64,000 nucleotides of DNA, from positions 287,099,533 through 287,163,532 of the forward strand of contig CM041778.1 of assembly GCA_023374045.1 (NCBI GenBank), written 5' to 3'. The position numbers were made by a program, and so were the translations under genes. The notes under the pieces are model-generated. The model worked only from the letters and a program-made list of their open reading frames with translations. It did not search any database and was not told where the DNA came from. Shown one piece after another: positions 16,764-64,000 of the stretch. This DNA is from Limonium bicolor. Its lineage: Eukaryota; Streptophyta; Magnoliopsida; Caryophyllales; Plumbaginaceae. Position 1 is the stretch's first letter. The number at the start of each line of letters is the position of its first letter.

Positions 16764-18797
16764 TTGAAAAAGAGAGACCTCGACGAGCAGTTTGGTAAGT
16801 TTCTTAGCATCTTTAAGAAACTAACAATTAATATTCCCTTTTCAGATGCTTTGACGCAGATGCCTATCTATGCGAAGTTCTTGAAGGACATCCTTTCAAA
16901 TAGAAGGTCATTAGTTGAGAAGGAGACAGTGCAATTGACAGAAAAAGTTTCTGCAGTGCTTAGCAAGAACCTCCCGCCAAAGCTCGATGATCCCGGCTTG
17001 CCAATCATTCCATGCTCAATAGGTAATGTCGATTGTGGTAAGGGTCTCTGTGATTTGGGAGCTAGCATTAATTTGATGCCTTTATCCATGTATCTTAAGC
17101 TTGGATTAGGAGAGTGTAACCCTACCGCATTACTTTACAATTAGCAGATAGATCCATTATCTTTCCAAAGGTGTGGTCAGAGATTTGGTTGTCTCTGTTG
17201 GTACTTTTGTTTTTCCTGCTGATTTTGTGATTCTAGATATGGAGGAAGACAAGGAAGTACCCTTAATTCTTGGACGCCCTTTCATGCGAACAGCTAGGAC
17301 CCTCATTGATGTTGAGGGTGGTAAGATTATTTTGAGAATGCATGATGAGCAGTTAGTCTTTGACATGTCCAAGGTTACTAAACATCCTTCTGACGTACAT
17401 GCCTGTTTTAGTCTAGATACTATTGATTCTTTGATGCAGGAATATATCTTTGGTCCAGCTGAATTAGATGAGTTAGAAAAGTGTTTAATTAATTCTTTTG
17501 ATGGAGCTCATGAGGATCCAGAGATTGCTGAGGTTGCATTCCATTTATCAGCTGGTAGGCCATTTCGCAGGGGTGCTCATATGGAGAAGGAGAGATTAGA
17601 GCGAGAACCTAAGGAGTTGATTCCTTCCATCAAAGCACCACCCACCTTAGAGCTGAAACCTCTTCCTAGTCATTTAAAATATGTCTTTTTAGTTGAGCCC
17701 TCTGGTTTACCTGTTATTATCTCTGCAGATCTAACACATTCGCAGGAGGAGCAACTTTTGCAGGTACTCAGGAAGAACAAGGAAGCAATTGGATGGTCTG
17801 TTGCTGATATCAAGGGGATATCAGGAAATTTCTGTACCCACCGCATTCACTTGGAGGAAAACTGCAAGCCAATGGTTCAACCTCAACGACGTTTGAATCC
17901 TAACATGAAAGAAGTGGTGAAGAATGAGGTAATCAAACTTTTGGATGCAGGTATCATCTATGCTATTTCAGATAGTGAATGGGTGAGTCCTACACAGGTT
18001 GTACCAAAGAAAGGGGGATTTACTGTCATCCCCAATGAAAAAGGTGAACTAGTCCCTCAAAGGACTATTACAGGGCATAGGGTATGTATTGATTACAGGA
18101 AATTAAATGCTGCAACTAGGAAAGACCACTTTCCTCTTCCTTTCATTGACCAAATGTTGGAAAGGCTTTCAGGGCATAAGTATTATTGTTTCTTGGATGG
18201 TTATTCTGGTTATTTTCAAATTCCTATTGCCATAGAGGACCAGGAGAAGACCACGTTCACATGCCCCTATGGAACATATGCCTACCGACGCATGCCTTTT
18301 GGATTGTGCAATGCGCCAGCTACCTTCCAGCGATGCATGACGGCCATATTCTCTGATTATCTTGAGAAATGTATCGAGGTATTTATGGATGATTTCTCTG
18401 TGTTTGGACTAACGTTTGATTCATGTTTGGAAAATTTAGATCAAATTCTAGCCAGGTGCAGAGAGACTCATCTAGTACTGAACTGGGAGAAGTGCCACTT
18501 CATGGTGCAAGAGGGCATTGTGTTGGGTCACAAATATCAAGCAAAGGTATTGAGGTAGATAAAGCCAAAATTGAGGTCATTGAGAAGTTACCACCACCAG
18601 CCTCAGTAAAGGATGTCAGAAGCTTCCTAGGTCATGCAGGGTTCTATAGAAGATTCATAAAGGACTTTTCGAAAATCTCAAAACCTCTGTGTGATTTACT
18701 AATGAAAGATGCAAAGTTTGAGTTTACGCAGGTCTGTCTTGACATTCAACACAATAAAGGAAAAGTTGGTGACTGCCCCTGTAGTTATTGCTCCTGA
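16764..18797 (+). pseudogene. pol: pol of copy B: protease and reverse transcriptase, frameshifted
   Basis: Frame 16764-17144 carries the protease-like DLGASINLMPL motif. Frame 17173-18558 (461 codons) carries LILGRPFMRTART, the RT fingers (VVPKKGG, GHRVCIDYRKLNA), LDGYSGYFQIP, MPFGLCNAPATFQRC and the catalytic FMDD at 18382-18393. RT runs off frame near 18532 and continues in 18423-18797 (RSFLGHAGFYRRFIKDFS). Lesions near 17135, 17169 and 18532 are the same as in copy A. The two-base loss near 18742 is private to copy B. Confidence 0.88.
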
Positions 18798-20541
18798 TTG
18801 GTCCTTACCCTTCGAGATCATGTGTGATGCGAGCGACTTTGCTGTGGGAGTCCTCGGTCAAAGGCACGAGAAGGTACTGCGAGTTGTTTATTATGCCAGC
18901 AAAACACTCAATGACGCTCAGAAAAACTATGCCACCACAGAAAAGGAGTTGTTGGCCATTGTCTTTGCTTGTGACAAGTTCAGACCATATATCATCGGGA
19001 GCAAAGTCATCATACATACTGATCATTCTGCTTTGAGGTATTTGTTCCAGAAAGCTGATGCTAAGCCCCGGTTGATCAGATGGATCCTACTCTTACAGGA
19101 GTTCGACATTGAGGTGAGAGACAAGCCCGGAGTACAGAACGGAGTTGCTGATCATTTATCACGGATGCAAGTTCCTGATAACGGTATACCAATTAATGAA
19201 TATTTTCCTCATGGACTAGTATATGCAATTGGTTTTAAGGAGGACCCTTGGTATGCCGATATTGCAAATTACCTTGATAAGCAGATTTTGCCACAAGAAA
19301 TGTCGTATCAGCAGCGAAAGAAATTCTTTTCTACTGTTAAGCAATACCGGTGGGATGACCCATTCTTATTCAAAGTTTGTGGTGATGGAATTATTCGTCG
19401 GTGTGTCCCAGAGACTGAGATTCGTGACATCCTTATCCACTGTCATTCAAGAGAAGCTGGAGGGCACTTCGGGCCAGCCAAGACAGCAGCTAAGGTATTG
19501 GAGGCAGGTTTCTTTTGGAAGACGCTTCATAAAGACTGCCATACATTTGTATCCACATGTGATAGCTGCCAGCGCCAAGGTAACCTTTCACGTAAGCTTG
19601 AGATGCCCTTGAATTACATCTTGGAGGTTGAGCCATTTGATTTATGGGGGATTGACTTCATGGGGCCATTTCCTTCTTCACATTCGAACCTCTATATCTT
19701 GGTAGCTGTAGATTACGTTACCAAATGGGCTGAAGCAGTGGCTGCACCGACTAATGATGCAAAGGTTGTGCTGAAGTTTTTGAAGAAAAACATTTTCACT
19801 AGGTTTGGGGTACCACGAGCAATCATAAGTGATGGAGGATCGCACTTTTGTAACAAGCAGTTTGAAGCCTTGCTGCAAAAGTATGGAGTGAGACATAAGG
19901 TATCCTTACCCTATCATCCACAGACCAATGGGCAAGCTGAGGTAACTAACAGGGAGATTAAGTGGATTCTACAGAAATCTGTTAGTTCATCCCGTAAGGA
20001 TTGGTCTATGAAATTGGATGATGCCTTGTGGGCCTACCGGACAGCTTATAAGACACCTTTGGGAATGTCTCCTTACAAATTGGTATTTGGAAAAGCATGT
20101 CATCTTCCGGTGGAACTGGAACATAAATCTTTTTGGGCACTTAAAGTTCTGAATTGTGATCTTCAGAAGGCCGGTGAGGAAAGGAAACTACAGTTGTGTG
20201 AACTGGATGAATTCAGAGAAGAGGCCTATGAAAATGCCAAGATTTACAAGGAACGGACTAAGAGATGGCATGATAAATTGCTTGTGAAACGAGAGTTTCA
20301 GATTGGCGACCGAGTGCTAATGTTCAATTCAAGACTGAAATTATTTCCGGGAAAGCTAAAATCTCGCTGGTCCGGTCCATTCACAGTTACAGATGTTTCC
20401 CCTTATGGAGTCATTGGTGTGGTCAACGAGAAAGGGGAAGCATTCAAGGTTAATGGATCACAGCTTAAGTTGTACCAAGGGAGCGATGTTGATATGGTTC
20501 ATTCAACACTTTGGCTCCGGGATCCTGACCATTCAAACTGA
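18709..20541 (+). CDS. pol: pol of copy B: RNase H and integrase, open frame of 610 codons
   Basis: Homology begins near 18745; the first dozen codons are out of the ancestral frame. RNase H shows [20 protein letters not shown] and [10 protein letters not shown]. The integrase zinc-binding part shows [10 protein letters not shown]...CDSC. The catalytic core has Asp at 19654 (WGIDFMGP), Asp at 19831 (IISDGGSHF) and Glu at 19939 ([10 protein letters not shown]), with 35 residues between the last two, so the DD35E triad is intact. The C-terminal part ([12 protein letters not shown]) resembles Athila-type integrases and ends without a chromodomain at the TGA at 20539. One in-frame codon is missing relative to copy A (GAVLG to GVLG). 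It lacks its own start and is a fragment of a former polyprotein. Confidence 0.85.
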
Positions 20542-22667: not shown

Positions 22668-24417
22668 TGATAAGTGTGAAACATATATGCTTTTAAAGGT
22701 TTAATTACCTTATAATCTGCTACAATTTAAGCAATGTTTCCCACTTATTCTGTGTTTCCTAAGATTGATGTTTTGATATGAACTGATGCACTTTATATGT
22801 TAAATATAGGAAAAACCCAGGGAAATGAAGATTTTACATCATAAGGATTACAACGCAACAAACGGGGAACAAATCAGGGAAAGAGACACAAAAATTGGTC
22901 GTGTCCGGGTCATCCTGGCCGGACACAGAACCGGACGTCTCACGTCCGGATCTGTGTCCGGGTCAAGTTAGCCGGACGTGACCCAAACGAGAATTCTATG
23001 TCTTGTCCGGATCCGGACAGCGATCCGGACATATTCCGAGATTCAGATCCAAAACCACTGTCTCACGTCCGGATCCGGACACGATCCGGACATGTCTCGA
23101 GTTTCAGATCCAGAGGTTCTACGTCACGTCCGGATCCGGACACAATCCGGACGTCACACAGAGATGAAAAATAAAAACGCACTCGTGCTGATAATTGGGC
23201 TTTCGGCGCAATTATCAGCCGAAAGCGAGTTAAGTCCATACCTTCCTTATATTAAGCAGCAGCCATACTCAATTAATGCAGTGCATACCAAACTTCCACC
23301 AACGCCTGTCTAATTTCTAATCCTATTTAAGGAGCCATTCAGCGTTCATTTCAAATCGCACCTGACTCTCTGAGTCTCTCCATTACACAATCCTCTCTTC
23401 TCCCTCTCTACACAACATCTCTTCCACGATAAACCATCCATCTCCATTCATAAATCCTTCTCCGTAAACCTTCACCCTCACTCACAGACAAAACCCTGCT
23501 CGCAGCGCTTCATTTACCCGCGTCCGGATTACGTCCGGATCCGGACAGCACCAGGACAACGTGTCCGGATCTACGTCCGACCCAAGACAGCCGGACGTGA
23601 CTCAGACAATTGTGGAAATTGCAGACTCGACCACGGCTTCTAAAATCAGTTTTTCTGCTAAATCCCTCTATCCTTATGCTGTTTATATTGAGCATTGTTA
23701 TTTTGTCTATGGCTGAGTAGTCGCTTTTAATTTCGGTTTACTATGTATCTCTAGAATAATTATTTCTGAACCTTTGTGATTTTCTGCAGTACAATAGAAT
23801 AAAGTTATTTGCCCTTATGAATTCCTAGACTTATTAATCTGATCAATTAAATAAGTTTATCAGTTTGTTAGCTTATAAGTGAGAACTGCGGCTATCAATT
23901 GACTACAGGGAAAGAACCGGTTAGTATAGAGATGGTAATTCCTCTAAACACTAGCTGACCATTAATCTAGACTACACTTAAAGCAATTAGTAAACAGTGG
24001 ATTCATAACGAGAGTTAGGATTCGGTCTTTGCTAATTAGAATTCGTGGAGCGGGAGACCGAATACGAATTATCTTTATTCTAGGGTTTTATTCAGAATAC
24101 TGTAGAAATCACTTAGGGGAAGAAATTGCAATCTAGAGAGAAGTAGTAAACCGGAATTTCCTTTATCAAACAAAAATCAAAACAATTATTTACCTGTTGT
24201 TTATTGCTTTTTGAACTCTTTTACAACATTCACCATCACATACAAAAACCCCCAATTTCCTGTTATTTGTTTTGTGTGTAAGTAGAAATTAAACTAGCCG
24301 CTGCCTCCTTGGATTCGATACTCAGGGAATACTCCGAGATTTAAACTTGCTATAATCGACCGGTACACTTGTGTTAGGTTAAACAAACACACAATTTACC
24401 GTTAGGTTTTACCCCAA
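22668..24417 (+). repeat. 3' LTR of copy B (LTR3)
   Basis: It begins TGATAAGTG and is uninterrupted at about 1.75 kb. It carries the TCCGG islands (22893-23162, 23519-23600), the interleaved inverted repeat (23188-23226) and the TATA-like box (23324). Its last 60 bases diverge from the other LTRs, and the terminal CA is replaced: the sequence reads CCCCAAAG instead of CCCCAACA. The neighbouring sequence belongs to H1. Confidence 0.9.
23188..23226 (+). other. Interleaved inverted repeats in LTR3
   Basis: This is the same A-B-A'-B' arrangement as 13581-13619, with both stems perfect. Its presence in two LTRs shows that it is a family feature. Confidence 0.9.
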
Positions 24418-25329
24418 AGTAGCCTTCTCGTTATTCTTCCTTTTTCTGTTATGGTTTGACTCTTCTGGGCTTGAGGATGGTACTTCTGTTTCTTGTACCC
24501 ACCTTGCCCTTGGTGCTCATTACTCTTCCCGGTATTCTTCCTCTTGGCATTGTCCTCGTCCCTTAGCTGGATGGTTATCTCAACCTTAGCAGCTGAATGA
24601 TAGCACTCCTGTTTCCCAAAGTATTAGTTCCCCCTTATATCTCAAAGTCTAAGTCATATTCACTTACTCATATTCATTTATTCTTATTACCTGCAAGGTA
24701 GTATAACTCGTCGGCCCCATGCCGTAGCGGAGTCGATGGCTAAGCCCGCCATAGAAGCGGTACACCAGAATCTGGTCTGAATATTCAAGACCCGGTAGAA
24801 GACGAAGCAAGGCGGTAAACTCTGAGTAATACTCGTCTATCGTCATCTTGTCCGTCTGCTTAAGCGCATCCAACTGCAAGCGCTTCTTAGTCTGGACATG
24901 GGCGGGATAGTACTTAGCTCGTAGTAGTGCGGTGTACTGCTCCCAGCCGAACTCTGGATCGGCCACACGCTCGACCCTCGCCAGCTTCCACCAATCGCCC
25001 GCTGCCCCTTTCAGATAGAATGCAGCCAGATGCACCTTGATTCCAGCAGGGACATCAAGGGTCTCGAAGGCGGTCTCCAGCTCGGAGATGTACGCCTCAA
25101 GCTTGGCGGGATCAGTCTCTCCCTGAAATGATGTGGGTCGAAGGTCTGATAGGCTCTTCACCCAGTTTGGTTCCCAGGGCTGTGGTGGTGGAGGTGGCGC
25201 ACCCACACCAGGCTGATAGCCCATATGCCCTAACGCGGCAGCTACGATCTTCGCGATCGTCTGCCCTCCCGGTATCTCAGCAGCACCATTGCCTCGGCCA
25301 TGGCCTCGGCCTCCTCTCCTTCCTGACAT
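24418..25329 (-). CDS. gag: Gag of H1, two exons visible, 3' end missing
   Basis: The start is placed at the ATG at 25329 (MSGRRGGRGHGRG), which matches the start of the H2 gag; another ATG lies four codons upstream. Exon 1 (25329-24691, 213 codons) has an Arg/Gly-rich N-terminus, a Pro run at residues 45-49 and a retrotransposon Gag core at about residues 55-205, with GAAGDWWK near 108 and LLRAKYYPAH near 135. The frame reaches YTTLQ and then CAG|GTAATA. A stop follows 8 codons on if unspliced. After an 82-bp intron the frame resumes at GAG-TGC-TAT (24608) and stays open to the Athila-type junction. No pol is present. I infer the splice from signals and homology; no transcript was seen. Confidence 0.8.
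24609..24690 (-). other. Predicted 82-bp intron in H1 gag
   Basis: The donor is CAG|GTAATA, the acceptor AAACAG|GAG, and a CTAAT branch-like motif lies about 20 bases upstream of the acceptor. It is AT-rich and carries in-frame stops. The H2 gag has an 80-bp intron after the same Gln codon, before the same Glu-Cys-Tyr codons. Confidence 0.75.
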
Positions 25330-46262: not shown

Positions 46263-46870
46263 CCAATGTCTTAAAAAAAATTTCGGGTTTCTTCTTCCCC
46301 GGCGCCCAGAACCAAACCGGCTACTCCTCCCTCCTCCTCCTTCTCGACGCTGCGCCACCGACTACCTCCAACACCAGCTCCACCACCGACGCGCACTCCG
46401 ACGCCGCACCACCAAGGAACCGACGCCGCGCCGCCAACGCCACCAGAAATACTGCCGTCCGCAGCCCCAATCGACAAACAGGTTCTTCATTTCTCTCATT
46501 TTACAGATTTTTGCAAACTTCGAATCTGGGTGAATTTGGGGTCATTTCTCTTAATCTTGGTAGATTAAGTTGGTTGGTGGATAGATTATGCTAGTATGCT
46601 GATGATTTGAGTTCAAAAATTGTGAGATTGGATAGAGATTTGGTGAATTTGGATGAATCTGAAAACTGAGTTCACGGCGATTTTCGATTTAGGGTTCTTG
46701 TTCTGTCCGGGTCTGCGTCCGGCCCTGTAGACCCGGACGTGTGTAAATATTAAAAAAAAAATTGAAAAAATTCTAGGTTGTTAGGCGATGCATTGTAGTG
46801 CTCTTTTTATTAATAATTTAATTTTTATGCTGTTTATGTTTATTTACTTTTAATTTCCAAATTTATTAGT

Positions 46871-48028
46871 ATGGCTCGTACTCGAGGTGGCCATTCTGAT
46901 TCTGGTCCCACTAAGGGCAACTGCCCCGGTGCGTCTTCTTCTTCTGCACCTCCTCCTCATCTGGCTCTTAGAGATGACGGTTTCGTTTCAGCAAAGGCCC
47001 GTGCCTGGTATGATCTAGGCAAGGACTTTGTGATGGAGAGGCGAATAGCGCCTGAGGTGATAGAGGCTACAGGGGTGGACACCCTGTTTGCTGGTTTTGG
47101 ACTCTCACGGGTCCTAAAGATAGGCGAGGGACTCTTCCTTACAGTTATGGTTAGAGAGTTCTATGCGAATGCCCAGGCGGGCAATCTGAGCATCACTTCT
47201 TTCGTCCGCCATCTCCCCATTGAGATCACACCGGCGACCTTCTCTACTATCCTGCAGATTCCGGATAGTCCTGACCATATCCGAGGATTCACAGAGGATC
47301 ACCTGCACAGATCGAAGGCGAGGTGGCTTCAGGATATAGGTCGGACGACCCGACGTAGAGGGGAGGAGGACAAGGATGTCCTCCCTTACACTAGTTTCCC
47401 CACATTACTACAGAGGCTGCTACTAGAGATCCTCAGTCATCAGATCCGCCCCCATGGCACGATCGATGCTTCTGATGAGGATTGCGCGCTCTTGGACTAC
47501 TTCCTCTCGCCATCTCCACCCACTCAGCGTGTCTCCATCTCGCACATCATGTTCGGCCAGCTACATAAGGTGGTCTCCTATCTCAGGACGAAGAAGAAGA
47601 AGATCACTCCCATTTTTCCCTTCTTCATCCAGCACCACCTCTGCTCGGTCCTTCCGGAGGGCTTCACACAGGGATTAGAGGTCAGGACGGGAGAGCGCCA
47701 AGTCACACTGCAGACTGTGAAGAGCTGGGGCTTTATGCCTTTAGAGGATGGTACCTGGGTCAGAGGTCGCTCTGGCCGGTCTTCCACCGCTTCCTCCACT
47801 ACAGCAGGGACCAGTACGGGAGCTACACCTTTAGCTGATCCCCAGCCACCCACAGATGACACAGCACAGGGAGATGAGCCCTACGTGTCGACGACCACTG
47901 TGATGCAGATCCCAGCTACTGTTCCGATACCGCCTGTCACATCAGACCTGCAGGCTCAGCTTCAGGCCTTCCACCAGATGCAGCAGCAGATGCATCAGAG
48001 GTTTGAGAGCTTCGAGCTGACACAGTAG
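46871..48028 (+). CDS. ORF of C: plant transposon-type protein, 385 aa
   Basis: The ATG at 46871 begins MARTRGGHS, echoing the basic N-terminus of Athila-type Gag (MVKTRSEG). Residues ~40-275 form one globular region with REFYANAQAGNLSITSFVRH and TPATFSTILQIPDS. It resembles the family annotated as putative plant transposon protein, carried by many non-autonomous Athila/Tat relatives; this is recognition by eye. A Ser/Thr/Pro-rich linker (~300-345) and a Gln-rich helix follow. A TAG at 48026 interrupts the Gln-rich helix, and the same frame stays open for 60 more codons to the TGA at 48209. There is no protease, RT or zinc knuckle. Codon use is GC-richer than the surroundings. Its function is unknown; a Gag-like or RNA-binding role is a guess. 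Confidence 0.75.
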   Translation: MARTRGGHSDSGPTKGNCPGASSSSAPPPHLALRDDGFVSAKARAWYDLGKDFVMERRIAPEVIEATGVDTLFAGFGLSRVLKIGEGLFLTVMVREFYANAQAGNLSITSFVRHLPIEITPATFSTILQIPDSPDHIRGFTEDHLHRSKARWLQDIGRTTRRRGEEDKDVLPYTSFPTLLQRLLLEILSHQIRPHGTIDASDEDCALLDYFLSPSPPTQRVSISHIMFGQLHKVVSYLRTKKKKITPIFPFFIQHHLCSVLPEGFTQGLEVRTGERQVTLQTVKSWGFMPLEDGTWVRGRSGRSSTASSTTAGTSTGATPLADPQPPTDDTAQGDEPYVSTTTVMQIPATVPIPPVTSDLQAQLQAFHQMQQQMHQRFESFELTQ

Positions 48029-49917: not shown

Positions 49918-52604
49918 TGTAACACCCCCTCCAATAATCAACGATATAATCTCTCACGGAGCAACAATAAAGTCTCGCAGCGGAAAAAACAATAACCATT
50001 ACAAAACTCACTCGGGTGTCACCGGCCGTTACTCGCCCACGCGAGCAACGACGCCAAACTACATCCACTTCCAATACAAATAAACTGCTAACCGCAGTGA
50101 TAAACGAAACTCCTATACACCATACTAAGTCCATAACCATAAACATCGCATGAGCGCTACCCAATCCTGAATACACAACCTTACCATAATACGATCACCA
50201 TCTTCATTGCTATCAACGTCTCCAAGTGTGGTGACAAAAGTAACACTCCAATTACCCTTTCCTGCTCTGCAGCTCCGATGATCAACAACCTGTAATGGTG
50301 TAGTTATCAGCGATACGCTGATATGCCGGGCCTGGACCCTAATGGTCACTTGTCATTTAACCATCTTATTATTAGATTGGTTCCATGCTTTCCCTTTTAC
50401 AGTTATAATCAAAACTGAAGCATAAATGTAATATACATAATCAACCATCCAAATATCCATAAACATTTAACCATCCATCCAATCCAAACATTCATTTATA
50501 TTTCATACAACATTTATATCGAACGTATCGAGTAATAACCATATAATGTACAATGTACATTCGCCGTAGCGTACAGTTTTCATGTTTAATTTACCTTAGC
50601 CTTGTAGGCTCCATCCAACCATCAACACACAATAAAATAACCACAAGTATAACCAATGAACAACAAAGCGAAACAACGAGAATAATAAACAAAGTATTAA
50701 GTCTTGTCCATGGTATTATTCGCCAGTATAAGTCTCAATTGTTTTAGTTGTTCAGTTATACCTAGTGACAATGTCTCGTTAAAACGACATGTCTCTAGTT
50801 ACCCATGTATTATGGCGGGTCACCCACGGCAGTAGCCACTCCAACGGTAGAGTCTCCGACCAACGAGCCATTCTAGCTCACGGGAAATTTTCTTGATACT
50901 TACGGACCCGTACGCGGACATCCTGGTATCGTTTTTGTGATCACACGCCGCACCAAGAGCCACATCCTCTTGGCTTTACTTCCATTCCATTAATTAATTA
51001 ATTATACCATCGCATCGCATTACCAAATTTTCTAACACAGCAGACTAAGGTCATTAGTCCAATCCGGAGTCTGTAAACTCGGGATCCAGTGTTAGATACG
51101 AGAGCGGCGTATAGAAAGGCCAATGCTCCGTATAAAAGTCTCAGATATATGTATATCTTATTATCTTAGTGCTACACGTTTTTCTGACGTTCCTTATGTT
51201 TCATATAAGATAGCACCATAGCCGCTAGTTCGTTTTATATATAGGTTCATATATACGAACCAATACTGTTAACTCCACAACAGTAAATAATAAGCAGCTA
51301 TAAATATACAATTCATGCATATTAATTGTCACATTCAGACAAACAATCTTATCACAGATCACACAGAAGTCTGAACTGAGAAGCCCTCAGAGACAATCCG
51401 AGACACATAACACATACAAGTTATATCAACCAAATCCGAGCCCAAGGAGCAACCTTAGGACAACTCGGATCAAACCCATTTACATACCGTTCACCCTGAT
51501 TGTATTACGGTGGAGTATGAATCAGCAAGATCCTATGCTCCGTGTAGTCCGCTAGCTCGTCGAGCGTCTTGTCAGAAGTACAATCTAAACGGTAATAAAA
51601 CTATAAGTCAGTCTCATGACTAACTACATCCGGTATTTCGAATAATAGTAACCCCGACAGTTCACACCTGTTTTCTACAGTTGTTCGTTACGGGTTCTCT
51701 CTAGAAGTCGGTTTTGTTACTTAAACGCGTACGTCATAACATTTCAACTGTTAAGTTTAATTCGTTGCATTCTTTTTAATCTTGTCACCATCTAGCTAGG
51801 TACATCCTATAGTTGCATGTATTCATGCATGATTGTAGTACATTAATATTTTTTGTATTGTGTCCAAAACTCATAACTTATAGTTCATAACTATATCTAT
51901 ATATATTTTTTTATAACCACCACCATTAAATCATATGGTTCCAACCAAATATATATAACCTTATATACATTATCCTTGTGTATGTATATATTTACCACGT
52001 AGGTAATTCCCATGAGTTAAATAAACTCTTATATTTATGTTACATTTTATCATCTTTTATTAGATGATTATTCCCATTAGTTGATTATATTATACAAACT
52101 CATATTAAGATTATTATCCAAATACTATGTAACATTTATGTTGTATGATTACAACTCCTAAGGTTTATTCCAAAACACCTTAGTTATAAATCCATTCATT
52201 TATAGTTTGTCACATTCTTTGATGTGAATATCCTTACTCATATTAATTCCACCTAAACCATATATTGTTATAACATTTATAACATTATAGACCTAGTCTA
52301 AAATTCATCTTTCAACTCTTATTAACTCGGTATAGCCCTTAACTTAATTTAAATTCCGTTTGACCATATAACATTATGTAATGTTATACCACATATTCTA
52401 ATAATTTGATATGATATTTTTATTCCCTTTAATTTATTCCTATAGTTTTATACAAAACTATTTCATATTGCCTCTTAGGCACATAAGAAAAATCTTATTC
52501 TTTTCTATAAACCAAAGTTTCCTTAATTACAAAATCACCCCTTAAATCATCCCACGTTATACATTCCATTAATTATAACATTTCTAACTTATAAAAGAGT
52601 ATAA
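49918..52604 (-). repeat. H2 3' LTR, distal part
   Basis: It begins TGTAACACCCCC at 49918, inside the C LTR. It is AT-rich with no gene. It is interrupted by S2 after 52609 and continues at 56684. The whole LTR is about 5.6 kb once S2 is removed. Its sequence beyond the terminus is not obviously like S1, S2 or D1. Confidence 0.8.
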
Positions 52605-52609
52605 CCTAT
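52605..52609. repeat. Target-site duplication, left copy, for S2
   Basis: CCTAT occurs here and at 56679-56683. Confidence 0.93.
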
Positions 52610-55600
52610 TGTAACACCCCATCCAAAGCCTATCGTGGTTATCGCAAACTGAACACTTAATCGAATACGTCGCAGCGGAAATAAATAATACCTGGACCTT
52701 GCCACGGTCTGATCGTTAGAAATATACCGGCTTTAACGTTTACAATACTTATCCAAAATACTTATCCAACTCAAAACATCAACATTCACATTACCACAAC
52801 CAACCGAGTACTAGTATCTTAAACATAATCTCAAACTTACATCAGTTTAATATAAACAGTCGGGTGCACAGGCGCAACCCGAACTCAAAATAAATGCCCC
52901 ACCCTAAGACTAACCGCTCCTACTCTCGTAGTGCGTCCTCATGGGCCTCTTATACTGCAAGTGTAAAAATAGCCCCCGAGGGGGGTCAGCACGAATGCTG
53001 GTACACCCTCTCATGGCCCCCAAGCTAATGGGGCTACGACGACTAATTGTCGATAGCATGGAAATTGATTACATACACAAGCATCATATGAAGTGCAATA
53101 ACAATAACCACAGATGAACATATATAGTTCACAAACAATGAACGACTCAAGCGTTCCCTTATCAAGTGGGTTAGTAACCCCTCCTTAGTCCCTCATTCCT
53201 TAATCTCAGTTCCTACCTTACCTTAATCTTAATCTCAATCTTAATCTTAATCTCAGTATACAAACCTTTCCTGGAAGGGATTGGTTGTAGCTTAATTCGA
53301 ACCTGGGATTTAGGTGATCCCACCGCACCATCTTAATGCCACCTACTCTGGACGGGAGTCCAGCGTAGCTGAGCCGACAACCGGCCCTAGGCTACAAGTC
53401 CGAAGACAAGTCCTTAAGCGGAGGGCGGATCTGATTCAGATACCGTCCCCCTTTTTCCTTAGCATGCATGACCGGAGATCGGTCCCGGGTTTCCTCACTC
53501 AAGTTCCAGTTAGTAGACATCTTAAACACCATGTGCTAGCTAAGCCCTAACGGGCTTTAACCAACGACCATCAAACTTAACTCTTATTCTTAACTTAGTA
53601 AGTACTAAACTTGGTTAGTAACAATCTCAAGTCTCGCGGGTTAGTGTAAATATAACACAATCACAACGAGAAACAATATAATCCGGTTGCATGCTTTATC
53701 TTGTTTTAGTCATAGCAATTAAACAGATAGCACCAAGCCGAGGGGACACCTCGTTAGCAAGCAGGTCACAAGAAGGATTGTACCGTTCACGTCGATCGTT
53801 GTTTGTTTAACCTTCTTTGGGGTCCCAACTCACAACCTAAAATCATTCTTCATTTTTAGGTCATTAGTTATTAGCACCTTTCTTAATCACTTAGTCTAAA
53901 GATTCCCATTTAATAACCTCTCAAGTTCTTGCCACTTAGCTTACAACTTAACTTTAAACATTAAAACTTATACTTAATCTTAACTTAATTCCTTAAGTTC
54001 TTAGGGTCCCAATCATTACTACCCTACCAAAGGCATACCTTATTACCCTTGCCATTCTTAGAATTCAAAATTTCTTTTTTTTTTTAATTTTTAGGCCCGA
54101 CCGGACTTCCGACCGACCTTACCTAAGGTCGGTCCATTCCAGAACACTTCACCGTTTGAAAATTCTACCCCGACCGACCTTGCAAGTCCGGTCCTATGTC
54201 CGGTCGATTCCAGAGACTTATTACCGTACAAAATACATGCCCGACCGACCTTGCAAGTCCGGTCCCAAGGTCGGTCCATTCCAGAAACTTTTCTCCGGTA
54301 GTGTAAACTGAGCTCGACCGACCTTGCAAGTCCGGTCCTAAGGTCGGTCGCTCCAGAACCTTGTTTCAAATTCTTTTCAACTCCAAACTTCTCCTCATAT
54401 ATTCTAATATGCTATAACCTCATTTGGGCATCTCAAATACACCTTAAGCCCTCCTCTAAACACATTAAATCATTCACCAAAATCCACCTTAGTCATTATG
54501 CATTTTCCTTGAAATAATGCTACACTTGTAATGCTTTCCTCTAGGTTTCTAGGTGGTGGTTCATACCTAATGTAACCACTATGCCAAATGTTTTCTTCAC
54601 CACTATAACATCATCTCCCAAGCATCTCTCACTATCTAAAACTCTTTTAAGCATTTACTAAAAGTTCCTTCACAAGTTTAAACTTCCATCATCAACACAT
54701 TATTTCCTTCCTAGTTGTGCACCAACATTTGCCTAAGTCCTAAATACCCAAATACATTCTCTTGATTCCTAAATCCTTCCTAGTAACGCCTAAGTCATTA
54801 TAAGTCCTTAGAACACCTTATTCTCACCCTTTTTCACCAAGACAATCTCTAGAACATCCTAGTACCTCACTTAGTCATTAAATTCTCTTAGAATGTCTTA
54901 AACACTTAAGCTCTCCTTTAAATTTTGCCATAGGTTCTCTAGTATATAATACCACCTAATACATGGTTTTTCTCCATCAAACAACCAACATCACCCAAAT
55001 TCTCACCACAACACCTTAACACCCAATTTACACCAAAACCACACCACATCATCATATAGTGCTTAAACTTAAAATGCTTGGCACTTAGGCCCTTAAATGA
55101 CAATAATCTTAACCACTGAATTTCCACATATATATGCCTTCAACCTGCGAATACACTCAACAAGGCTCCCATTGAAATAAAATGCTTCTTGTACTTCACC
55201 TTGATATTCTTAAACTATCTCTTTTTCTCATTTGCTCCTTAGTCACAAGTTCACAAGTATAGTCATTGTTTCTCCTAGGTTTTATATAACCCTTTTCTAA
55301 TGTAAACTCACTACTAAACTCATCATATATCTAAATCCCATTCCCTTAAACAACAAAACACCTTAAGGTAAGTAATTTACCTTGTTCTTTTACAAGCTTA
55401 AAAGCTTTCTTCCTTAGGTTTTTCTTTGTTCAATCTCGGTCACCAATGTGTATCTCCTTGCCAATGTTCTAACCAATATCCAATGACTCCAATGAGTACT
55501 AGATAACACATTAACCCTAAGGGACAAACCCTAGGTTAAAAAAAATATGCTTTAAGGTATTAATGTGATTGTTTTACCTTGGTTTCTCAAGACAAACTTG

Positions 55601-56678
55601 GATATGAAGCAAGAAGGACCTCCTCTCTCCTTTGAAGAGTAGAAACAAGCTAGAACAAGGCATAAACATGGAGTCCCATGAGCATATATTTTCGGACATG
55701 TGAAGAAAATGGTGGAAACCTAGATTTTCTTACACTTTCTTTACCTTAAGAGAATGGAGATGCCAATGGAGTCTCCAAACTTGAATTTCCTTCTCTAATG
55801 GTGGTTTGACTTGGCACCAAAATGAAGCTCTTGAAGTTTTGAAAAGATAGAAAGAAGGAGCTTGAGCTAACTAAGAAGAGTATGTATTTTGTTTTGGATT
55901 TGGAGCTTAAATGAGCAAGTAGTGTGCAAGAGAAGGTGGAGCTAGCATGGAGGTATGCTTCACGTTAATGGAGAAGAGAAAGAGAGCAAGAAACCGTGTG
56001 AAACAAGGGAGAATGAAGAAGTGAGGAGAGAGGTAAGTAAAATGTGATATTTATGTAAAAGGTGAATAGTTAACTTACTTGCTTTTGCTTTCTCTTTACT
56101 TAGCTAGATAAGTGTGGTGAGTCACACTTAAAAACCGGCCCCCTTTTATAAATGAGGTTAATTAAGTCTTTGTTGACCAAATGTCTCACTTATATAGACT
56201 TATGTTATAAACTAGCTTAATTAATTCACTATTCATCAAAAACAAGGCACATTGTTGTGAAATTTTTGATTTCCCATTGATATAGACTTCCAAATGTGAT
56301 ACTATATAGTACACATGTTAATTAAAGAGTAATGATGGACATTTAGCCATTCAAAACTCATTTACAAGACAATTTTTCAAAAACGTGCTTTAAGACTCCT
56401 TAAAGCACATTTTGTGTTTTAACTTGTTTTCAAGCTTGGTTTTCTTTGGTAATTGATTTAAAATGACCATTAGGATATTACTAAGGTCTTAGAACAATAT
56501 TTGGGTACTCTCCCAAGTCTCTCCAAGCTTAGAGCACGTTTTTGTTAAAACTGCTCTTTTGGTGTTTCCTTATATTTTCTTTGATTAGAAATGTTTCTTA
56601 ATGTTTCTAAGGCATTATTTAGCCTCCTTATATCTTAGTTTATCATTTAAACACCATATCTAAGTTTGGGGTATTTCA
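52610..56678 (-). mobile_element. S2: 4.1-kb solo LTR of the S1/H1 family
   Basis: Plus-strand ends are TGTAACACCCC and GGGGTATTTCA, with TSD CCTAT. It is the reverse of S1 and about 550 bp shorter, partly because S1 expanded its hairpin array. It contains the structured block (53300-53500), the inverted-repeat island (54088-54360) and the 5'-proximal hairpin (56384-56414). The frame at 53314-53550 mirrors one in S1 but lies antisense to the LTR and is not supported as a gene. Confidence 0.92.
54088..54360 (-). repeat. GGTCGG/CCGG inverted-repeat island in S2
   Basis: There are four units with GACCGACCTT and AAGTCCGGTC or AAGGTCGGTC arms and a CCAGA linker. The site corresponds to 11166-11432 in S1. 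Confidence 0.85.
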
Positions 56679-56683
56679 CCTAT
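56679..56683. repeat. Target-site duplication, right copy, for S2
   Basis: CCTAT matches 52605-52609. H2 LTR sequence resumes here. Confidence 0.93.
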
Positions 56684-59612
56684 GGTTATTTTTTTTGTAA
56701 ATTCCGAACAACCCTTGTGCTATTCTATAGTTGCCATTTGGCCCTATTTATAACATATAGTTCACCATATCATTAAAACTATATTTTATACACATAACTT
56801 ATTAAATTCTCTTAATAATTCTAAAAATCACCAAATTCCACCAAAGGGTTATAAATATCCTTATTAACCCATATACTTTCAATATTTACCATTCCACCAT
56901 CTATTTTTCTCCAAAGTGTCATAATGACATTATAACTATATATTATACATATATAGTTCATTTTAAATTCCAAAATCCACCAAATAAATTCCTAAAAATT
57001 CCTAATAGCCCATGGGTGTTTAAAATACCATTGTACACCCTTTATTTTCGGTAATAACATATTTACCACATATGTTATAAAAATATTACCTTAAGATACT
57101 TATCTTATTATAACACCTTAAATAAGTTATTTAACTTATCTAATTTGGTCAAAACCTATCATATGGTCAAGGTTGACCACCTTAATATTTCCTTGACCAC
57201 CAATTCCTTATAATTACGGTTTGCACCCAAACTTTCTAGAAATCACCATTTAACCCCAAAACTTTATAAAATCTTATAAACTTTATTTTAACTCCTTTTT
57301 ACCTCTAATTTTCGGCCTTATTATTCTAAAGCCTTTAAATTTAATTTAATTACACCTAATACCCCATTTATTTTCGGTAATGCATTTATACTACTTAAAC
57401 TTAATTAAAAGCTTGTAAATGCATAAATAAAATGGCCTAAAATACATGGCCTTATTACAAACATTGTCTTGCAAAATAAATTACACATAAATGTCCCAAA
57501 TACATATAAATTTTCGGCCTCACCATATATTCTTCATTTATTTACCAAACTTCCACATAATGTCTTAAATTTGACAATTATGCTTGTTTAATTAGTTATA
57601 AAATTTATTAAACCATTCCTTAAACATTTTAAGGTCAAATAAGACCTTATTATTCTTCTTCACTCACGGCAATAGTATTAGAATTAGCTTAGAACATTTT
57701 TAACTTAGCAAAGTTAATGTTTAAGTGATTTATACCTTGATTTAGCTTAGGTAATCCTTGTTTGAGTTCGCCACCTTAAGGAGAAATTCTCCACAGCTTG
57801 TTTTACATGTTTTCAACAGAAACCAAGGCCTAGTTAGTCTCCAAGAAAGATCTAACCATAAGAAGTAATTTAATGTAAGATTTAAGGCAAAAATCACCTT
57901 AAGAATGCAAGGAGAGTTCAAGATGGTTTCAACCTGAATCAAACACACCACAAGGTGTTAGATCCACCATATTGACATAGGAAATAGCTAGATCTCAACA
58001 AGCTACCTTGTTATTAGGTTTTACCTTGGAAAAATGCCTTAAAAGAGGGTATTTCCTTTGGATCTCGGCCATCCTTGCTCCAAATGGATAACCAACAGAT
58101 TCCACATGAAAAGTAGAAGAAGATGAGGCTATGACAAAAGTTTCACAGCCGAACTTGAAGGGAATCAAAAGATATGAGCTTAAAGCACATTTTTACCTTA
58201 AATGGTCAAGACTTGAACTTTCCTCCTTAGATCTGGTTATGTACGAAACCAATACTTCCTTTAACCTCCAAATCACTCTACATAGATGTATAGAAAAGGT
58301 TGGAGTGCAGATCAATGGAAAAAGGAAAGAAAGATGAAGAAAATGGGCATTTTTATGCCTTAGGAGCTTACCTAGAGCTTGAGCTCTCATCAATGGAGCT
58401 TGGGAACCTTACCTACGGTGGAGGGGAGCCAAAGGGAGAGTTTGGCAGTGAGCTCCACGTTTGGAATGGAGCTAATGAGAGAAATGACCTAGTTTTTCCT
58501 TAAAACACATTTTTTTGCATTTTTTTATGTTTTAAGTGACTTGATGACTCATCACCAATTGATTGGTGTTGAATAATTGAAGAGGAATCGGTGGAGACAA
58601 GAAGAGGGGGCAGCCGTCCTTGATTGGGAAGGTAGGGTATGATTGATTCAAATTTGAATCAAAAATGAGATAATAATGTGACTTTTAGCAAAAGTGAAAG
58701 GTGACTCATCTTGCCTTGTCTTGTACTGCTTGGGAGCCACGAAATACAAGGGGAAAGAGGAGCAAATGGAGGCTCCAAATCGGCTGGCTCACATGGGGTA
58801 AGGTAAGTGGAGCCCACCTTTTTGTTTTATAAGGTAAAGTTTACTTTTTTGTTATTTTATGCAAAAGTAAGGGACTATATTTAATTGTCACATGTCTCTT
58901 GTCTCTTGGTCTGTTAAGAGACTTAATTATCTGATTTTATGTAGTCCATTTCGTGGTCAATGGTCAACATTGACCAACTTAGTCAATGTTGACCCAAACG
59001 GGCCCCACATTAGGGTTTTATTAATATTTTAATATTAATTTTGTAAAAATTCGTAAATTTCTGAAATTAAATTCCTAATATCATATAATATGATATTTTA
59101 TTATATTAAAGGTATTTATAACCTTTTAGCTCATTTAAAACCAATTTAGAAGGCGATTACACAAAAACGTGCTTTAAGGAGTTTTAGTGCACATTTTGTG
59201 TCGCCAAGTGTTTCTGAGCTTGGTTTTCTTTGAAAACGGTCTTGTTGTGTTCCTTACATGATATTTGATCATGTAACTCAATTTTATATCATTTAGAGGT
59301 CATTAGACCTTTAAGGTTTCTTAGAGCACATTTTTGCCCTTTTTGACCTTGAAGCATGAAAGTGCTTGTTCTTTGTGTTGGAGTGTTGCCCAACAATTAT
59401 AATATGTTTAGTAATGTGTTAATATGCTTAGGATAAATGTTTGGGTCCTACATAGTTCATTTGGGTATTTATTTACCCTTAACAGTCAAAGGGTGCAACA
59501 TCTTGTTTTGTGTTGACCACTGTTGTTCTCAGTTGATTTTCTAAGGCATGTTTAGGCCTTAATTAATGTGATTAGATATTTAATCCATGTTTAATAAGTT
59601 TGGGGTATTTCA
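56684..59612 (-). repeat. H2 3' LTR, proximal part
   Basis: It is AT-rich and ends GGGGTATTTCA at 59612. An inverted repeat GGTCAACATTGA...TCAATGTTGACC lies at 58962-58994. A hairpin-like AAACGTGCTTTAAGG segment near 59168 corresponds to the 5'-proximal hairpin of S1. The short frames (57742-57951, 58131-58503) show no recognisable protein. Confidence 0.8.
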
Positions 59613-59629
59613 GTCTACCCCCCTTAAAA
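59613..59629 (-). other. Polypurine tract of H2
   Basis: On the minus strand, TTTTAAGGGGGGTAGAC abuts the LTR start TGAAATACCCC. Confidence 0.85.
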
Positions 59630-62594
59630 AGACTTCGTCCCGAAGTCTCTCAATCAAATAGGTAAGTATATAAATGTATAACTACCCATTATTCCCATAA
59701 TGTCTATCTATGTGATATATCATTTACACACATCGTATTGCGCTCATACAGCACATAGCCATCACGTTGTGGCGTTAGTTCAATCATATATGGATATAGG
59801 TGATCCATCAGCATCATCATTTCCTATCAGTTCTACAAGTCCTGACAACCTTCCTGAGGTGTCCATAACATTCCATTGTTCCACATTCCATATCTAATGA
59901 TTCATCTCGTATCTAGGCGATACCATATGTAATCATTCTATAAAGCAATATGAATACATATCACAAATAGCATAAGAAAAGTGTTACACACCTGGTGTAA
60001 ACACAACAGTCATACAGGTATCTCGTAAGATACATACATACAAGTGCACATCACACACAAACAAACCAAACAACGCACGCCCCGCGTACCAACCATAACC
60101 ATCAAAACCAGTTCACTGTATGCTATGCATACTAAATAATTCACATACTAACCAAACAAACCTCGTATGCCCCGCACACCACCAATTCTTTGTATGCAAT
60201 GCATACTAAACAAACAAAACTTAGTGCACACATGTGCACAGCCAAGAGGCTCTACCCCCCTTAAAAAGGGTTATGCCCCCGTACCCCACAAGTATACAAT
60301 AGCCGCTCAACAAGGAGCACTGGATACTTGGCTCTCAAAGAGTTCTTCAACTCGTGGATTATCCTCATATCAGAGAGACGGGTATGATTCTAGCCCCTCA
60401 GGGCTCCACAATGCATAAGGGGTGAGGCACTGATCTATTTGTGCTCTCTCCCAAGTTTATTCTTATGGACCCACTCGCTCCGTATGAGGTGCAGACCCAT
60501 GAACATATGCTCAATTTGCCTCTTTTTTTGCTGTGAATCCACTCATTTGGATCACTAGCATACATGCGTGTGTCTTCTCTCACTGACATTCAGTTGAGGT
60601 ATACTATGACATTGGCCATTGTTAGTACTTAGTGCTTTTGCACTTGTCTTTGTAATACTAAGACGTACCAGCCTAAATGTCCACAACGATGATGTTTGTC
60701 ATCCATGTCTCCTGGTGGTTTTGCTCCGGAGTAACACACTGTTATAGTTCTTTTTTTTTTACACACTCGTGTTGATATCCACTTTATCTATCTGCGTTCC
60801 CGCTAGATTAATAACTGCACGAGTGCAATACCAAAACACTCAGTCATACAGAGTGCAGAGGTGTAAACGCTCAACAGCTAATATCCAATGAGTCAAACAG
60901 AAAAGATGTGCGAATTATCCTGTGAGTGGTACATTCCAAATCCACTGTTCCTTGCTTAAGGTATCTGCTATTATATAGCTTTGTCTTTTCTCCTCGCGTG
61001 GTCACGCGTTTATATCCATATCATCTGGTAGATTTCTTCTGGATTGTAAGAATTTACTCGATCCTTATGAGGATTCTACATATTATCCGTCCATAACGGG
61101 TTTTCTTGTTTCTTTTTTTTTTTGGGTTCCCATCCTTGAACTGTTTCCTTGTCTTCCCTGTATACTGTCCATTGTTCTCTGTTGAAGGTTCTTTTTTTTT
61201 TAGCCCGTTGGTTTAACTGCGGCTCTTCTCGTCCATCTTCGAGGTAATCCGTCTTACTATCCGTAGAATGGAGTTGACTACTTCTCGTGTTCCTAACACT
61301 ACTTGTCTACTTGCATGGGGTACCGTACTGATACATTACTACTTACCCGACTAACTTATAAATAAGTCTGTCAGGCCCACATGCTCCTAACGGAGTGCGG
61401 TCGTCCCATGTCTCGTTTAGTAAACTGGTAATGTCTGTCACACGGTTGTTGTGAAGTATTCTGTTGTCAATCTCCCTCTGATGGATATCCTTTTTTTTCT
61501 TTTTTTTTCTCTTCCTCTTCTGCTTTCTTCTTTTTTTTTTGTTTTTCTTCTTTTTGCTTGCTTCTTTTTTTGTAATAGTTCATGTTATCAGTTATCCTGT
61601 AATGAGTGATATTGCCTTTGTGGCAACCGTGGTAACTTGTATCATAGACTAGTATTATTCAACTCGGTGTAAGTAAAATTCGTGCTATATTAGCAAACTT
61701 GTTTCTCCTCTTTTTTTTCTCATTGAGTACAACACATTTTCCTTTTTCTCCCTGTTTTTTTTTTATCAAATCTCATCCATAGTTCATATATGTCCCCTCA
61801 TCCATGTAATTGGATGCATTGCAGATTGCATAATAGTTTGAGCAACTTGGCTCTTCACTTCCAAACCATCCTCACTGACGGTGGTGCATCTACAAAGGGT
61901 ATGTTTGTCCATAAGGACTAAACATTTATCACTAGTAGTGATTAGTATTCAATCCGGGTATACATTGATGGTATTTGGCTATAAGCCCTGTCTGAAAATC
62001 CCCAAATAATTAAACTGGTGTGGTTTACAATCACAGTGGTTGTATAGTTTCCCCCAGTTGCAGTGGTTGGACTAACTGTCCTTCCATAGTTGCATAAGTT
62101 TCTAATCTCAGGGTTTGTATGAAAAAGTTTGAAAGAAAACATTTTTTTATATACACATAATAAAAGACTAAAAAGTAGTAACTGTTGCAGTTGCTGTTAC
62201 TGTTGTGTTGCTGTCGTTGCACTTGCTGTAGCAAGTGCGCAAGGCAGGTGGAAATTTCAGTGGTTTACTTGTCATAGCGCTTGCAATAGCAAGTGCGCCA
62301 TGCAGGTGGAAATTCTGGTTCAGTAATTCCCGGACTCATTGACTCTATGTCATTTGAGTATTGGCTACATGATAATGTAATCTTAAACATCCTATTCATA
62401 TATATGTCCGTCAAGGTTTAAAGCTTATAGGTACTGAGTACACACAACTAATCTCAAAGTCTTACACAAAAGGCGAGTGGTCAATGACACACTCCCACGT
62501 TCTTATAACATAGCTCCTTCTAACATCCAAAGTAAGCACACAACATAGTAAGTAAACAAAGTCTTCCACCAGCGGTCTCATGGAGTTAGGGGAC
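59630..62594 (-). other. Non-coding interior of H2
   Basis: I find no pol motifs in 3 kb. Several blocks are related to the D1 interior. It contains a second PPT-like sequence (60250-60267), long T/C tracts (61488-61575), and a duplicated hairpin unit GCACTTGC-tgta-GCAAGTGC (62219-62238, and near 62279-62298). Confidence 0.75.
60250..60267 (-). other. Internal copy of the H2 polypurine tract
   Basis: CTCTACCCCCCTTAAAAA here matches the 3' PPT at 59614-59629 (TCTACCCCCCTTAAAAAG shared exactly). D1 has a degenerate version (CTCTACCACCCTTAAAAG) near 31914. Confidence 0.75.
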
Positions 62595-62872
62595 TCATGC
62601 CCTATCTACTCTCTTGCCCTTCAGGGCTCCAGCATCAGTAGATGTCTGGCCATCCTGACTGCCTCGTGGTACTCCAGATCCTCCAGCTGAGGTCTTCTGA
62701 GTATTTTTTTGTGGCCTGTAGTTACGGCTCTCTGGGTTCATCCAGCATTCGAATTCCCTATGGCCTCCTTTGTGGTAGCACCGACATTCGACTTTGCGGC
62801 CTTCGTAGTCGACCCCTGGGTGGTCCTTCCCACAACGCTTATAGTAAAAATGGCGCTGGGGCTGTCCGGTGC

Positions 62873-62958
62873 CTGATGATTGTATTAAAGTGTAAGTTAA
62901 TAATTGTTGATATAAAGGTTAAGGTTATAGTTGAATTTTAAGAGGTAGGTGCTCTCAC
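62873..62958 (-). other. Predicted intron 3 of H2 gag (86 bp)
   Basis: The donor is AAGG|GTGAGA and the acceptor CATCAG|GCACC. It is AT-rich, with stops in frame. Splicing joins a split Gly codon. Confidence 0.65.
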
Positions 62959-63077
62959 CCTTAGGAGGTGCAGATCTTAGAGGCTTAGCATCAATAGCTG
63001 GGCCGGTCAACTGAAGGACGGGCTCTTTGCCTTGCTTTCCCTTGTGACCTTGTTGCCCTTTCTTTTGGAAAAACTTC

Positions 63078-63152
63078 CTGTTTAAATGTTTCGGGTCAGT
63101 ATTTATAAGATATTTAGTATGGTAAACAATTTAGAGTGGGATAAGTCCTTAC
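63078..63152 (-). other. Predicted intron 2 of H2 gag (75 bp)
   Basis: The donor is GAAA|GTAAGG and the acceptor TTAAACAG|GAAG. A CTGAC branch-like motif lies about 20 bases before the acceptor. Splicing joins a split Lys codon. Confidence 0.7.
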
Positions 63153-63292
63153 TTTCCCTTCTTCTGGCCTTCGCCTGGAGATGCTCCTCCACCCTCAGAC
63201 TCTCCTTCAGGGTTCTTCCTTTTCTTTGCCCCTAGAGTCTCTTCCCGAGTCTGGAGCTTTAGCTCCGTCCTCGAGGCAGCCTCATAACACTC

Positions 63293-63372
63293 CTGGAATC
63301 TCCTTGGTAAGTTCTCACAAAGTTAATTGGTAGTGTAGTAAGTAAAGAATCTTATGGCTTTCATGTTGGTAC
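63293..63372 (-). other. Predicted intron 1 of H2 gag (80 bp)
   Basis: The donor is CCAA|GTACCA and the acceptor TTCCAG|GAGTGT. It sits after the same Gln codon as the 82-bp H1 intron, in phase 0. Confidence 0.72.
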
Positions 63373-64000
63373 TTGGATGGTAGTGTAGAGGGTAGCACAC
63401 ATCGCCATCTGAATGCGAAATAATAGTCCTCCCCGGAACTTCTCGACCTTCACGGTCTCTGAGTAATCCACGCCGGGAATGAAGTCCAGCTGACCAATGA
63501 ATCGAGCGTAATACTCATCCACGGTCAGACCTCCTTGGATCAGTGTCTCTGACTCCTGGCGCTTCTTCTGTTTGAGATGTGCTGGGTAGTACTTCCCTCT
63601 CAGCAACTCGACAAAGGCAGCCTACGAAAAGTCAGGCGTAACTAGGTGATGGTCCTTGACCAACCTCCACCAAGTGCTGGCTGCATCCTTCAGATGGAAA
63701 GCAGCAATGGCGACCTTCTTGTCGTCTGGTACTTGTAAAGCTTCATAGGCCTTCTCATGTTCAACGATGTAACGTTTCAAAGCTACGGGGTCTGGTTCCC
63801 CAGAATATGTAGGTGGTCGGGTCTCTGTAACTGACTTTAGCCAGTTCGTTTCCCTGGGCTGTGGCGGGTGGGCTGGTGTTCCTCCTATCTAAGTACCCAG
63901 CTGTGTAAGAATGGCTACAACCGTCTCAGCAACTCCTGGAATGCCGGGGTCACCGCCTCCACCTCTACCAGTACCACGCCCTCTAGTACCACTAGACATC

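Follow-up and report, generated by a model that had tools for sequence, protein, structure and literature searches.

We consider it very likely that a high-copy, gag-only family of long terminal repeat (LTR) retrotransposons in Limonium bicolor carries three small spliceosomal introns in its gag gene, and that the RNA it copies is almost always unspliced. Introns are expected to be lost from elements that are copied through RNA. The gag gene lies on the minus strand at 63999-62595 of the window, by which we mean the whole stretch of 64,000 nucleotides analyzed here (assembly GCA_023374045.1, contig CM041778.1, positions 287,099,533 to 287,163,532), and it comprises four exons and three GT-AG gaps with junctions 63373/63292, 63153/63077, and 62959/62872. 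Its parts are as follows, where an empty site is a place at which the two exons adjoin without the intron and family B is a second gag family discussed below.

63373..63999, minus strand: gag exon 1, N-terminus and capsid (Retrotrans_gag / Ty3_capsid), with two in-frame TAGs in this copy
63293..63372, minus strand: intron 1, 80 bp, GT-AG, phase 0; empty sites found; family B occupies the same site
63153..63292, minus strand: gag exon 2, basic linker; resembles exon 2 of family B
63078..63152, minus strand: intron 2, 75 bp, GT-AG, phase 2 (split Lys); absent from part of the fetched loci
62959..63077, minus strand: gag exon 3
62873..62958, minus strand: intron 3, 86 bp, GT-AG, phase 1 (split Gly); empty sites found; counterpart of the same phase in family B
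62595..62872, minus strand: gag exon 4, cysteine-rich zinc-knuckle-like segment and C-terminus, ending in TGA

The positions, lengths, and GT-AG ends of the gaps are exactly those given in a first-pass annotation of the window. As it had also stated, the gaps are AT rich (64-71% AT compared with 45-50% in the exons); their T content is 28-33% versus 12-22%. Joining the exons restores one frame to the TGA through the predicted phase 0, split-lysine, and split-glycine junctions, that is, with phases 0, 2, and 1. The four segments had been described as open; their boundaries hold, but exon 1 of the window copy (row L001) is closed by its two TAGs. Similarly, the zinc knuckle had been called a relic, which is accurate for the decayed cysteine-rich exon 4 segment of the window copy, but the segment is better kept in two other translated copies. 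Exon 1 of another copy matches Retrotrans_gag in Pfam (E 7e-14, residues 98-192 of 209), and the Retrotrans_gag / Ty3_capsid profile places exon 1 among Ty3/gypsy Gag proteins. Exon 4 had no Pfam match in the two copies tested, and exon 1 of one copy, used as a query against public proteins, returned 602 candidates, 0 of them at E ≤ 0.001. Without splicing, the reading frame of the window copy stops three codons into intron 1. We rejected a coding role for gap 1 in another frame, which meets a TAA in the window copy and in most of the 40 copies shown.

We searched the genome for copies of this gene (2.92 Gb in 2686 contigs, at least 8 of them over 100 Mb). The DNA search gave 4464 first-look candidates, the best 40 of which were scored; these 40 intron-bearing rows are thus selected for closeness to the window copy. 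All 40 retain the three gaps, at 80, 75, and 83-86 bp, in alignments spanning nearly the full query. Intron 2 keeps GT-AG in 38 of them, and intron 3 has a GT or GC donor with an AG acceptor in 39. When part of exon 1 served as a protein query, no open frame exceeded 251 residues among the 150 matches scored of 40,183 first-look candidates, compared with about 390 expected of an uninterrupted gag.

The decisive evidence that the gaps are introns comes from copies that lack them at the predicted boundaries. A junction-1 pattern made of 14 letters of the end of exon 1 (the last two free) and the first 18 letters of exon 2, with up to three mismatches, finds 54 places in the genome without intron 1, and a comparable pattern running into the intron finds 2720 places with it. 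The search for members with and without the gaps, which the first-pass annotation had proposed as a check, therefore uncovered no majority with a continuous gag at junction 1. Junction 3 occurs without its intron at 104 places, and the reversed-pattern controls for both junctions gave 0.

We picked loci by hand from these places, 20 of the 54 for junction 1 and 19 from 100 listed of the 104 for junction 3, so the shares of the states given here are not representative. We scored each intron as present (1) or absent (0) in the order 1, 2, 3. In alignments extended to the exon ends, the intron-1 gap is 0 bp in all 20 junction-1-less loci; two of these lack the rest of gag, and the 18 that are readable comprise five 000, six 001, six 011, and one 010. 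Among the 19 junction-3-less loci, one has no exon-2 match, and of the 18 readable loci, thirteen are 110 (intron 2 is shortened in one of them), four are 100, and one is 010. Six combinations (110, 100, 010, 001, 011, and 000) thus occur among 36 readable loci, and the absences measure 0 bp at the predicted boundaries, or -1 in two cells. Intron 2, whose absence is read from fetched loci and from spacing, is missing from 11 of the 18 readable intron-1-less loci and from 4 of the 18 readable intron-3-less loci (one by -1 base). A junction-1 empty site adjoins 16 of the 100 listed junction-3 empty sites, at a distance of 258-262 bases in 15 cases and of 335 bases in one, which fits intron 2 being absent and present, respectively.

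Six of the intron-1-less loci were translated directly from the unaltered genomic sequence. L057 keeps a single frame across all three junctions, with point stops; L053 is open across junctions 1 and 2 and on into intron 3; L056 is open across junction 1 and stops where intron 2 begins; and L052, L058, and L059 are broken by frameshifts. Introns removed both singly and jointly are expected if RNA in a fully or partly spliced form was reverse-transcribed and the resulting copies then spread and recombined. These data support the interpretation of such copies as fossil cDNAs and of the gaps, which are small and AT/U-rich, have GT..AG ends, continue the frame, and are missing at the same boundaries from the putatively RNA-derived copies, as real, old spliceosomal introns. 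The earlier assignment of spliceosomal introns within gag is thereby borne out, with further support from two sites common to family B and from purifying selection in the joined frame.

Family B is represented in the same window by a truncated gag gene.

24402-25329, minus strand: family B gag
24691..25329, minus strand: exon 1, 44% identical to exon 1 of the main gag over 208 aligned positions
24609..24690, minus strand: intron 1, 82 bp; site and phase correspond to those of intron 1 in the main gag, with an unrelated interior
24419..24608, minus strand: exon 2, truncated at about 24418 by other DNA

Exon 1 of this gene matches Pfam Retrotrans_gag (E 5e-16), and exon 2 starts with ECYHS, compared with ECYEA in the main family. 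The intron 1 interiors of the two window copies resemble each other no better than shuffles do (292 of 1000 were as good). A genome search gave 7649 candidates, and intron 1 is taken as present in the 40 that were scored, as their alignments cross it at about the query length. Three copies, L097, L098, and L099, have an intron at site 3 in phase 1 and none at site 2. The intron 3 acceptor was read as AACAG/GA in L098 and L099 and is changed in L097, and this reading preceded the empty-site search that bore it out: family B has 197 empty sites for intron 1 and 163 for intron 3, with 0 in the reversed controls, and 4121 places with intron 1 present. Sixteen pairs at 249-260 bases occur among 100 listed junction-3 and 100 listed junction-1 places. 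The shared sites and phases imply that introns 1 and 3 are older than the family split or were gained twice; double gain at the same site seems unlikely, and the greater age of these introns is the interpretation we favor. Intron 2 may be younger, or may have been lost in family B. A search of viral_contigs with family B exon 1 gave 6 pattern matches and no relative.

Could the gaps instead be GT..AG stretches that arose by chance, or insertions into a gag that is decaying and never spliced? The window copy is indeed decayed, with its two TAGs in exon 1. However, empty sites occur at the predicted junctions in two families, site and phase are shared at 44% identity, and the joined frame shows codon periodicity. 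The empty sites refute this explanation, and we assign it practically no likelihood.

The element that carries gag continues downstream on the minus strand.

59613..62594, minus strand: internal region after gag, about 3 kb, without a detected pol domain (Pfam on 10 open reading frame (ORF) pieces)
59613..59625, minus strand: purine-rich AAGGGGGGTAGAC directly before the 3' LTR, likely polypurine tract
56678..59612, minus strand: first part of the 3' LTR, starting TGAAATACCCC; matches other copies and their LTRs
52610..56677, strand unassigned: other DNA within the 3' LTR, with a beginning similar to that of a related LTR
49918..52609, minus strand: second part of the 3' LTR, ending GGGGTGTTACA

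Each element has two LTRs of about 5.6 kb, and in the window copy the 3' LTR is split by the other DNA into 49918-52609 and 56678-59612. The 5' LTR ends in TGTTACA beyond the window, and TGGTATCAGAGC, which we take to be an initiator-Met-type primer site, starts four letters later; AAGGGGGGTAGAC is presumably the polypurine tract. The two LTRs, together with this putative primer site and polypurine tract, mark the element as an LTR retrotransposon. The LTR pieces that were compared in the window copy are 95.2% and 98.0% identical. No pol domain was found in the 10 ORF pieces of the 3-kb post-gag region (Pfam, E 0.1), a region of similar kind follows gag in other copies (part of the copies examined), and no autonomous partner turned up, although no search was aimed at pol. 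Overall, the element looks gag-only and nonautonomous, similar to the TR-GAG elements, in which two LTRs surround gag without pol and some of which move despite being nonautonomous (PMC9784723, PMC11728184). Gag without pol between two LTRs is also what we find here, in the part of the copies examined. Unlike the TR-GAG elements, for which the main texts of those two papers mention no introns, this element has three introns in gag, and its LTRs measure about 5.6 kb.

Some copies lie about 9.9 kb or double that distance apart in one orientation (e.g., G000 C1:36552527, 36562410, 36582179, and 36592070, and similar cases), a spacing that suggests tandem elements with common LTRs. Downstream of L058 lies an older intron-less copy, L061, which is about 80% identical and has just about 1.1 kb from gag to an LTR-like start, compared with 3 kb elsewhere.

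Intron 1 is retained at 2720 of 2774 probed places in the main family and at 4121 of 4318 in family B, both rough ratios. Because the intron is present at most places, most inherited copies seem to derive from unspliced RNA. The earlier suggestion that the genomic RNA stays unspliced stands to this extent, as an inference from the junction-1 ratio, but the intron-free minority implies that spliced RNA is sometimes copied. We propose that splicing would take the introns out of the RNA from which full Gag is made (comprising the capsid, the basic linker, and the zinc-knuckle-like part), and that the RNA that is packaged and reverse-transcribed would almost always be unspliced, leading to inheritance of the introns. 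Such an element would use two RNA pools, as in BARE1, and would obtain its pol enzymes in trans from another element. Fully or partly spliced RNA would occasionally be copied as well, and the spread and recombination of these copies could produce the minority that lacks one, two, or three introns. The unspliced RNA of the window copy would give only the exon-1 (capsid) part of Gag plus three residues, because its frame stops just within intron 1; the basic linker and the cysteine-rich part lie beyond this stop, so both would need splicing. Splicing may, in this way, choose between a capsid-only Gag and a Gag with its nucleic-acid-binding part. More broadly, we tentatively entertain, as a possibility still short of probable, a lineage whose multi-exon gag predates the split of at least two families and in which the spliceosome sorts the unspliced genome from the spliced Gag messenger.

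Several observations weigh against this model. The evidence for splicing comes from genomic DNA, and the retention ratios rest on counts of fossils, not on rates, and on intron-bearing and intron-less probes that differ in their free letters. Only 3 of the 40 scored copies have all exons open and all splice sites intact. The intron-1 acceptor is AG in 27 of the 40, AA in 12, and AT in one, and the donor is lost in three, where it reads AT; the loss of these sites in copies that have spread suggests that cis splicing of an intact gag is not required for spread. Within the 12 AA-acceptor copies, the ratio of nonsynonymous to synonymous polymorphism (pN/pS) is 0.63 in exon 1 and 0.29 in exons 2-4, and the latter value is unexpected for a gag cut off by lost splicing, barring recombination. 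Exon 1 looks relaxed in this group, whereas exons 2-4 do not. In the 27 copies with an AG acceptor, intron 1 is less variable than fourfold sites are (5 of 71 informative versus 39 of 198, p=0.014), which would not be predicted for free intron sequence and perhaps reflects a functional signal in the intron; the corresponding comparisons in the same copies are 7 of 66 for intron 2 (p=0.13) and 23 of 77 for intron 3 (p=0.08). Intron 2 has no counterpart in the three family B copies. Finally, a predicted splice joining Gag to the AlkB-type domain that follows it in family B (see below) yielded 0 empty sites at the one boundary assumed, and this fusion was dropped for that reason. The clustering of the intron-1-less copies, which belongs with these points, is considered next.

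Our exon-1 tree contains 60 rows, 20 without intron 1 and 40 with introns, and the 20 cluster, requiring 3 changes compared with a shuffled mean of 17.0; the choice of the 40 for closeness to the window copy adds to this clustering. Intron 1 may have been lost only a few times, with the resulting copies then spreading. Within the 20 rows the states are unclustered (11 changes versus a shuffled mean of 11.4), with 8 changes for intron 2 loss (shuffled 10.3) and five for intron 3 (shuffled 5.8), and introns 2 and 3 vary within the intron-1-less copies. The clustering would also be expected if the intron-free form were ancestral and introns had been inserted into gag during the spread of the family. 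When family B is used as a long-branch outgroup, most intron-1-less copies do fall outside the three-intron clade, and the absence of intron 2 from three family B copies means that this intron could be a gain of the main family. However, the introns of matching phase that family B has at sites 1 and 3 argue against such gain, as do the six coexisting states, which no single ordered series of gains produces without recombination, and the tree is biased by the selection of the 40 rows. In particular, gain in the order intron 3, intron 2, intron 1 conflicts with 110, 100, and 010 unless recombination is added, and that order was discarded. On balance, we find intron gain quite unlikely.

The joined frame shows constraint at the codon level. 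Among the 40 copies, informative sites in all exons number 42, 34, and 78 at codon positions 1, 2, and 3 (of 388 each), so that 78 of 154 fall at third positions (p=7e-6). Methylation-driven change could inflate third positions; the excess persists in columns whose common base is A or T only. For the 27 copies with an AG acceptor, pN/pS is 0.30, 0.41, 0.33, and 0.31 in exons 1-4, and the sequences as a whole support a signature of purifying selection in the joined frame. These values bear on the possibility that gag is dispensable and that the gaps are relics of a once-spliced gene, baggage of an element mobilized wholly by others. That 37 of the 40 copies are broken in exons or splice sites, and that 12 share the changed intron-1 acceptor, would fit a dispensable gag. 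The pN/pS values of all four exons in the acceptor-intact copies do not, and breaks arising after insertion are expected in old copies, so the count of broken copies pools these with inherited breaks. We regard a dispensable gag as unlikely, and as regards the past it does not exclude the two-pool model that we prefer.

The Ogre elements, plant Ty3/gypsy retrotransposons of the Tat lineage, have long LTRs and an intron that is spliced from part of the transcripts (PMC6317226, PMC9289625), described as lying between gag-prot and pol (PMC6317226), and a primer site for tRNA-Arg (PMC9289625). To the extent of these descriptions, Ogre and the present element are alike as intron-bearing plant Ty3/gypsy elements with long LTRs. 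The element described here differs in having several introns within gag, none found between gag-prot and pol, no pol found, and a primer site that looks to be of initiator-Met type. The Ty1/copia element BARE1 makes Gag from spliced RNA and replicates a separate RNA pool; it has a single intron of 104 nt, whose splice junction lies 2 nt beyond the coding portion of gag and creates a stop (PMC3735527). In that account, the BARE1 splice ends gag, whereas here splicing would join gag itself. In EVADE and in triticale and sunflower elements, splicing of LTR-element RNA yields Gag isoforms through one or two introns (PMC7765848, PMC7730604, PMC12786077). Among the triticale GAG-RNAs, 14 are Copia and one is Gypsy, mostly with one intron and, in the Gypsy case, none (PMC7765848), and the sunflower elements produce short spliced Gag isoforms (PMC7730604). 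As far as these accounts go, such isoforms part Gag from the polyprotein remainder or truncate it, in contrast to the joining proposed here. A 2025 review, in the portion consulted, considers introns generally absent from plant LTR elements, with Ogre and EVADE as exceptions (PMC12786077). We found no description of several introns within a plant Ty3/gypsy gag in open-licence PubMed Central, with subscription papers and preprints outside the search.

A gene-like exon-intron structure without pol could also reflect a captured host gene, an intron-bearing gag taken unspliced between LTRs, and the AlkB domain that is also present in family B is in keeping with such an origin. The capture would have to predate the family split because the two families share intron sites. 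We think this origin story improbable; it is compatible with splicing and two RNA pools as proposed above.

In the described plant exceptions the intron regulates pol or ends gag; here, the introns sit within gag and were kept through a divergence that erased intron-1 similarity and left 44% protein identity. Within one genome, places with the introns number in the thousands and coexist with a few hundred that are intron-free, which makes the separation of messenger and genome in retrotransposons measurable: leakage per intron, the order in which introns are spliced, and recombination among the RNA forms could be read from the genome. If the proposed model is true, introns mark the RNA destined for inheritance, and the intron-free copies stem from spliced RNA that leaks into particles. 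Gene finders may score such intron-bearing gag genes as broken.

A second feature of family B is a 2OG-Fe(II) dioxygenase (AlkB-type) domain after gag in L097 and L098, in L098 by similarity.

L097:3095-3763, plus strand: AlkB-type domain, Pfam 2OG-FeII_Oxy_2

In L097 the domain appears as three pieces in profile order (E 7e-5, 4e-10, and 6e-6), the second of which alone passes the curated cut-off, placing it in 2OG-FeII_Oxy_2; the closest solved chain is PDB 5xeg (E 3e-17 and 1e-11). A protein search with one AlkB piece gave 35,186 first-look candidates, and all 150 scored matches lie at E ≤ 1.2e-46, many of them with a recurrent 251-residue open frame. The domain thus apparently follows gag in very many family B copies, and in five cases read by eye the gag and AlkB matches are about 1,695-1,700 bases apart. 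Phalaenopsis Ty3/gypsy elements with AlkB are described as Ogre-like, 25 kb long, and having a single frame for gag and pol, and the corresponding screen, as reported there, used reverse transcriptase (RT) as a marker and found the AlkB domain in no other plant genome used (PMC9289625). Gag-only elements would escape a screen with such a marker. On that description, an AlkB-type 2OG-Fe(II) dioxygenase in a plant LTR element is common to the Phalaenopsis elements and family B, and the type of element differs.

Elsewhere in the window, the plus strand carries two very similar copies of another element.

828-6218 and 15050-20541, plus strand: gag-like and pol frames, the latter by RT profile
46817-48028, plus strand: 403-residue open frame with a Pfam Transposase_32 match under the cut-off

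One of the two copies may be part of the DNA that truncates the gag of family B at about 24418.
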